Source: Sphingopyxis sp. (GTDB taxonomy: Bacteria > Pseudomonadota > Alphaproteobacteria > Sphingomonadales > Sphingomonadaceae). From it: DNA of 64,000 nt. Where the stretch lies: the NCBI RefSeq assembly GCF_016793825.1, contig NZ_JAEULM010000014.1, positions 1 to 64,000 of the forward strand. The letters run 5' to 3'. This document shows, piece after piece, positions 36,838 through 37,668 of the stretch (position 1 is its first letter; every line of letters begins with the position of its first letter). A program made the translations under genes and the position numbers. The notes below the pieces were generated by a model, which searched no databases, had not been told where the DNA came from, and was given only the letters and a program-made list of their open reading frames with translations.

Positions 36838-37229
36838 GCGCTGATACGAGCGAAAGGCGGACAGGTTCGTTTGTGCGCCGTCCGATGCCGGTGTACGATC
36901 CTGCCTTCATTTCGGGGGAACGGCGATGAAGCGGATGATGATGGCGGCGCTGCTGGCGGCGGCGATGGTTCCGGGAGCAGCGATGGCTGAGGAGGCACCC
37001 GCGGCGCCGGCGGATGATGCGCCGGTGGTGATCGAGGCGAAGACCTTCATGGCAGGCTATGCCGACGATCTGCTGACGGGCGACCGTGCGGCGATCGCCA
37101 ACCGGTACGACCGGCGTGGCGCGTGGCGCGTCGGCGGCGGTGAAAAGACCTTCGACGAATGGAATGCGATCCGGCGTTACTACGCCGAAGGCTGGAACAA
37201 GCCGGCGACATTCGAATGGCGCGATTTTA

Positions 37230-37260
37230 GGGTCAGGACCCACTAATTCCGCGCTCGAGG
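37230..37260 (+). repeat. Left terminal inverted repeat of the MITE
   Basis: 31-bp repeat matching the right end in inverted orientation with two mismatches. It contains the small palindrome GGGTCAGGACCC. Confidence 0.85.
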
Positions 37261-37462
37261 TTTGAAGCGATTTTGTTCAGGGCGAGGAGAAAAGGCGCAG
37301 GAATATGTCGATATTTCCAGACTTTTTGACGAAGCCATGGGCAAAATCGGTCAAATCCCGCAGGGACGCCGAAATGGCTTCGATCTCGAACCTGCGCGGC
37401 CTTGCGGGTAGCGATGCTACCCGCTGCACCCGCACAGGCCCGATATCTTCGCCATTTCGACG

Positions 37463-37493
37463 CCTCGAACGTGGAATTAGTGGGTCCTGACCC
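37463..37493 (-). repeat. Right terminal inverted repeat of the MITE
   Basis: 31-bp inverted copy of the left end, two mismatches, ending at the TA at 37494-37495. Confidence 0.85.
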
Positions 37494-37668
37494 TAACTAT
37501 GAACCGATCGGTGCCGATGCGGTCGCGATCGTCGGCCTGTTCGACTGGGGCCTTGGCGAGGGCAGGGCACCCATTACCCTGTCGTACACCGCGCTGCTTA
37601 CCCGCCAGGAAGGCGAACTTCGTATTCGCCTGGAGGATGAGAGCGCGGCGCCGCAAAAATAGACCGCG

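Follow-up and report, generated by a model that had tools for sequence, protein, structure and literature searches.

The window, by which we mean the whole 64,000-nucleotide stretch of DNA that was analysed, carries a 264-bp non-autonomous element at positions 37230 to 37493 that begins with GGGTC, ends with GACCC and has TA directly outside both ends, at 37228-37229 and 37494-37495. It is described here on the forward (+) strand, the orientation in which most old copies of its family read into the downstream gene. The preliminary description of this locus had named 31-bp inverted ends matching at 29 of 31 bases, which is what we find (37230-37260 and 37463-37493), and an inverted-repeat tool returns the same repeat as 34 bp at 94% with the TA side counted in. 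The first 12 bases, GGGTCAGGACCC, had been called self-palindromic and are so except for the central two, and the inner hairpin at 37404-37424 is perfect as claimed, with a 9-bp stem and a 3-nt loop.

The element interrupts an exported gene on the same strand. The 5′ part of this gene (36926-37229) now runs into the element and stops there at 37246, giving an open reading frame of 106 amino acids (36926-37246), and its 3′ part lies at 37496-37662. When the element is removed and one TA is kept the flanks come into frame (...WRDF-NYEPIGADAV...), as had been proposed, and an intact orthologue (locus L311 in genome G088; 72% over 156 amino acids) passes the join without a gap, which makes it an empty site; a second, weaker intact orthologue (L312 in G001) aligns at 58% over 118 columns and is likewise empty. 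By sequence, the copy in the window inserted recently and broke a gene, and the earlier claim of a recent, TA-duplicating insertion into an exported gene holds. The name NTF2-like that was given to the gene is weaker, as the intact orthologue reaches DUF4440 at E 0.046, a score that falls below the cut-off, and a Pfam search with either half of the gene gave no match at E 0.1. The split gene is rare, since its 5′ half is matched in only 5 of 80 genus genomes, its own included. The element itself is not a chance arrangement, because its own genome has three full copies, of which the other two match the window copy at 94-95%. That genome also contains two copies shortened by deletion, to 179 and 161 bp, and a further copy that is degenerate.

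A dispersed MITE family and its probable parent

With the window copy as query, 28 of 35 other genus genomes match and none of 24 other genomes of the order does, and with a diverged copy as query the matches extend to 65 of 80 genus genomes and to 31 of 249 family genomes from 21 of 96 genera, several of the latter by short weak matches. Six plasmid records match the family, and none of the phage records searched does. Copy numbers are lower bounds, as the genus survey scored at most nine candidates per genome and the family survey at most three; genome G060 carries at least 17 full copies. We collected 192 distinct full copies, leaving out 33 loci without both core anchors and one at a contig edge, and 167 of them are exactly 264 bp long. 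The first 107 copies were chosen by matched ends, with 18 loci that had no matched ends or span left out, and 56 of these 107 have TA on both sides. Copies of 263, 265 and 266 bp break any reading frame, and a coding role for the element was rejected on these grounds. The element is short and without a transposase (264 bp, with open reading frames of at most 61 amino acids), and it has terminal repeats, a TA duplication, many dispersed copies and empty sites. It qualifies as a MITE, and its likely partner belongs to the IS5 family. The search for further copies and empty sites that the preliminary description had suggested bears out its idea that the element belongs to a distinctive family, here present in many copies, that lacks its own transposase.

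The parent of this MITE is probably an IS5-family element. PF01609 transposases occur in 8 of 10 genomes searched, and among 32 transposase loci fetched three (L162, in the window's own genome, L171, in G024, and a shortened one, L172) carry the ends GGGTCAGGACCCATTGATT and GGGTCAGGACTCATTGATC with TA outside, their agreement with the MITE consensus end being 18 of 19 bases on the left and 16 of 19 on the right. L162 and L171 are an 841-bp, TA-flanked IS5-family element. The transposase of L162 matches PF13340 and PF01609 and lies in two frames, one of which scores 161.8 over positions 110-258 of NF033580, above the cut-off of 110, and the other 104 over positions 3-112, just under it; the inner sequence of L162 is unlike that of the MITE. 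The full-length transposon that the preliminary description had suggested looking for was found, with nearly matching ends, in the IS5 family. A derivation from IS630/Tc1-mariner elements, which the preliminary description had favoured and with which the TA duplication agrees, was rejected and is very improbable, as PF13358 (DDE_3) has no match in the window's own genome and is present in 2 of 10 genomes, and IS5-family elements with matching ends are present instead; two DDE_3 loci that were inspected have no MITE-like ends.

Around 20 seemingly unpaired ends (stretches of up to 4.6 kb, some ended by the contig) a search for an autonomous transposon gave no long two-ended element, and about half of these stretches proved to contain ordinary or truncated copies with more mismatches at the other end. 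The end pattern that was searched for tolerated one mismatch, and the IS5 end, which departs from it at two positions, was beyond its reach. In G060 no insertion sequence with matching ends was found among eight fetched of its 15 PF01609 matches, which counts against this parent. L172 (1445-1942, in G096) is a 498-bp internally deleted IS5-family copy, intermediate in size between the parent and the MITE. The same genomes also contain further IS5-type elements whose ends start with GG and have CTAG/TA outside (L161, L187, L189 (G060), L166, L173 and L183).

Predicted fold and paired change in the ends

The consensus of 59 copies folds with 92 predicted pairs, 52 of which have at least one both-sided change. 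The terminal repeats form the arms of a closing helix, P1 (37230-37260 and 37463-37493), which is followed on the + strand by three predicted hairpins: P2, the first long one of the conserved core (37261-37355), P3, a small one with the sequence TCCCGCAGGGA in the window copy (37356-37366), and P4, a second long one that was also seen as inverted repeat I2 (37367-37462). The perfect hairpin at 37404-37424 forms the apex of P4 and covaries among copies (columns 179-191 and 181-189). P1, P2, P3 and P4 join without unpaired bases in the consensus fold, which gives a predicted four-way junction. The Rfam 15 covariance models, run on the window stretch and five loci, returned only sub-threshold microRNA matches.

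The strand on which this fold would act is read differently by its different helices. P1 mismatches in mid/old copies comprise 29 G.U and 37 A.C, and with no G.U excess RNA selection on P1 is unsupported. The same G.U/A.C balance is 35/11 in P2, which favours the + strand, and 14/47 in P4, which favours the - strand, and the consensus fold is more stable on the - strand (-153.5 versus -126.8 on the + strand). In eight leaders that were folded P1 forms in all eight, the start codon is fully paired in five, and the folding gave no clear open ribosome-binding site.

The ends are unusual for a MITE in that they vary between copies while the two ends of any one copy match. In all 192 full copies a copy's own two ends pair at 20 or more of 26 bases when each edge may be moved by at most 3 nt to optimise the match, and pairing by position is 93-99% except at positions 22 and 25 (about 70%), falling to chance from 3 nt outside the element. 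These two positions (37251/37472 and 37254/37469 in the window) are mismatched in some 30% of copies, compared with 1-7% elsewhere in P1. In the 36 of the first 107 copies that have divergent ends, agreement within a copy is 24.3 of 26 and between copies 14.8. Of 28 loci from other genera two are cut by contig ends, with end pairing of 16 and 13, and all 26 usable copies pair at 27 or more of 31 end positions when the best placement is searched.

The orthologous insertions show that P1 evolves pairwise, in place and after insertion. Across 32 orthologous-site pairs in which both flanks are alike there are 49 double-compensated changes, 39 one-sided changes and 4 other double changes, against a null of 2000 trials that scattered the same number of changes and gave 3.7 compensated ones on average and never more than 10. 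These 32 pairs overlap in their loci, and with one hand-picked pair per site the remaining 23 sites hold 39 double-compensated and 29 one-sided changes. Some sites (L111/L228, L123/L254, L196/L212 and L074/L271) have no one-sided change at all. Because orthologous insertions have changed pairwise in place, we rejected a different-transposase origin as the main cause of end diversity. The element is inverted between the same flanks in three orthologous pairs at two sites (L025, L074 and L271; L112 and L205), as is expected of template switching or recombination between the ends, and both the homogenisation of arms and the inversion of the spacer have been described for template switching (PMC8604942, PMC8794818). 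Among 29 orthologous pairs in which this was measured, 27 have a core that is conserved no less than the aligned flanks, the exceptions being L123/L254 and L204/L234, with three pairs of unequal length left out. Some insertions are common to several species (L114/L116/L121 and L110/L115/L214/L229), which shows long retention at one site.

Placement of long-lived copies before start codons

Genes beside the copies were called with a home-made codon model using a stricter training set, an exact mirror control and one copy per flank cluster, so that the 192 copies reduce to 152 flank clusters, 117 of them with both flanking genes called; the same orientation bias was obtained with a first version that had a less strict training set. 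Codirectional right-hand genes accompany 26 of 49 young copies and 62 of 68 mid/old ones (P 3e-6). Calls for young copies inside genes may err, since the 3′ half of the gene next to the copy in the window (L001) escaped the caller. Sorted by the state of the TA, codirectional right-hand genes number 30 of 49 with both TA, 30 of 37 with one and 28 of 31 with none. Two of the usable loci from other genera have no right-hand gene called, and the remainder give 6 of 16 where TA is intact and 7 of 8 where it is eroded. A start codon lies 0-5 nt past the right end in none of 26 young copies and in 29 of 60 mid/old ones (P 2.5e-6; no start was found for two of the 62 right-hand genes), and on the minus side in 2 of 21 mid/old and none of 15 young copies. 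Pfam matches at E 1e-4 were obtained for 25 of the 29 start-abutting genes and revealed no evident common pathway; the NrdR and PF03602 profiles begin at residue 1, which supports the called starts. Long-lived copies are, on these counts, strand- and position-biased, with an orientation preference that is not absolute because of the three inverted orthologous pairs. The position of older copies before start codons, with their shared predicted fold and co-changed stem halves, suggests that mobile DNA has been incorporated into the control regions of genes.

At two sites the leader could be compared directly, using forward-strand loci only: 14 NrdR and 18 ABC-F relatives without the element and one of each with it. 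The NrdR site without the element reads GGGTGAA(A/G)CGC, followed by a stop codon and an ATG a few bases on, and with the element it has GGGTGAAGCGCTAA on the left and TAACG-ATG on the right, an arrangement that fits a Shine-Dalgarno and a start on opposite sides of the helix. The ABC-F site without the element has a leader running straight into the ATG (...TTCAT(C/A)ATG), and with it the same leader stands on the left and the ATG directly after the element. At both sites the element thus lies between a native leader and its start codon. In tandem contexts the left-flank Shine-Dalgarno is better for start-abutting copies (mean -4.6 in 20 copies) than for the others (-2.0 in 22 copies and -2.6 in 19; one-sided P 0.004), and where the start is 10 nt or more away the Shine-Dalgarno lies on the right side. 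Left Shine-Dalgarnos of -6 or below, which we count as strong, are present in only 6 of the 20 tandem start-abutting copies, and the nine divergent start-abutting copies stand at -3.4 against a control of -3.5, with none above control, so a bridge across the element would be at most part of the explanation. The P1 3′ arm is purine-rich in some copies, and its match to the anti-Shine-Dalgarno is -5.0 in start-abutting copies against -3.7 (P 0.06).

A proposed role in translation initiation and its rivals

We propose a model in which a structured MITE has repeatedly been kept within translation-initiation regions, where its closing helix would bridge a ribosome-binding site that the element has split and its arms would stay paired largely via template switching, a model that we hold to be somewhat likelier right than wrong. 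A putative IS5-family transposase would mobilise the sphingomonad MITE in trans, duplicating TA, and the ends and core of each copy are predicted to fold into the closed four-way junction of P1 to P4. The copies that persist mostly have a + strand leading into a downstream gene, with the start 0-5 nt after the right end in about half, and their P1 has altered in sequence and yet kept its pairing; we infer that they are kept since they have become part of the translation-initiation region. A P1 helix closed flush at its two edges would bring the native leader, which lies to the left and sometimes includes its Shine-Dalgarno, beside the start codon on the right, and in some copies the P1 3′ arm may itself supply a purine-rich site. 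Once the element is installed its loss would harm the gene, leading to a conserved core. The paired changes in P1 seem best explained by template switching between the inverted repeats, through homogenisation of the arms and an occasional inversion of the spacer, with selection likely removing broken P1 stems.

Precedents for parts of this model exist. In phage T4 genes 25 and 38 an RNA structure between Shine-Dalgarno and AUG gives a split ribosome-binding site its working distance (PMC3014915), although the spacings in those phage mRNAs are 22-27 nt and the insert here is a mobile element of 264 nt. Where inverted repeats are present, template switching produces arm homogenisation, spacer inversion and compensatory stem changes like those of P1, in studies of RNA genes and yeast coding genes (PMC8604942, PMC8794818). 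That MITEs may act in a riboswitch-like way is judged conceivable in a 2024 review (PMC10969869), and the literature searched, mostly without subscription papers, held no report of this element or of a MITE at a split ribosome-binding site. If the bridge is real, ribosomes initiate across a 264-nt structured insert. A bolder form of the model, which we offer tentatively and think rather doubtful, is that a mobile element, spread through a bacterial family, that can lie between a ribosome-binding site and a start codon is tolerated by folding away, as an unspliced, self-looping insert across which initiation proceeds, and that it has been repeatedly domesticated before housekeeping genes (those for NrdR, a RelA/SpoT protein, an LptD-domain protein and a GTPase) while its closing helix is rewritten by template switching. 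The model, if true, would link a bacterial MITE, repeated exaptation before housekeeping genes and direct phylogenetic evidence on the upkeep of long stems, which are seldom met together, and the 192 copies and 23 orthologous sites provide a data set for compensatory change in which selection through G.U steps can be set against template switching.

The strongest rival, unlikely but to be taken seriously, is an ordinary IS5-driven MITE with no host role, whose stem is kept by template switching alone and whose old copies before start codons are simply those that cannot be deleted without harm to the gene, a case of entrenchment. The lack of a G.U excess in P1 fits this reading, as do the homogenisation and inversion that are both observed here and both described for template switching (PMC8604942, PMC8794818), and a start codon that is predicted to be paired in 5 of 8 leaders is unlike a device made for initiation; what this reading does not easily explain is a core conserved at least as well as its flanks in 27 of 29 pairs, and a strand preference that places starts within 5 nt in 29 of 60 mid/old copies on the plus side against 2 of 21 on the minus side. 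An improbable rival is that the element is a regulatory leader, in which P1 sequesters a ribosome-binding site in its 3′ arm and is opened by a ligand, by temperature or when a ribosome terminates at the left edge. The slightly better anti-Shine-Dalgarno match of that arm in start-abutting copies (P 0.06), the upstream stop codons that often adjoin the left edge and the start codons that are often predicted to be paired would be in keeping with such a leader, but a 31-bp stem is very stable and the 29 start-abutting genes have no evident common pathway by Pfam. Slightly less probable again is that the downstream gene is driven from a promoter or protein-binding site within the element, and that the helix matters only as DNA. 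This would account for the upstream, codirectional placement and for a P1 without an RNA-strand signature, but the core covaries along its length, a search of the window copy for sigma-70-like promoters and terminators found neither, and the distance to the start of the left gene is 34-186 nt in 30 of 35 mid/old divergent copies, leaving room for a native promoter to the left of the element. The bridging model retains our preference over these three rivals.

Other bacterial repeats share features with this MITE. The 127-bp ERIC/IRU elements of enterobacteria likewise have TA at their ends, an intergenic position and RNA folding, and affect co-transcribed neighbours or mRNA in an orientation-dependent manner (PMC2229807). 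Compared by description, they differ in length and in their 7-bp terminal repeats, and the available part of the same text describes no co-varying ends, four-way junction or start-codon placement for them (PMC2229807). The Correia/NEMIS elements of Neisseria also have TA at their ends, with 24-bp terminal repeats and folded transcripts (PMC2229807). They differ, by description only, in that their proposed role lies in RNase III processing. Their parent family is not known to be IS5. At its left edge the MITE described here often inserts within the stop codon of the upstream gene (copies L001-L279), where TA and the first G of the element re-create a TAG; among the 34 young copies that have an upstream-facing gene, 17 have a stop whose last base is at +1.
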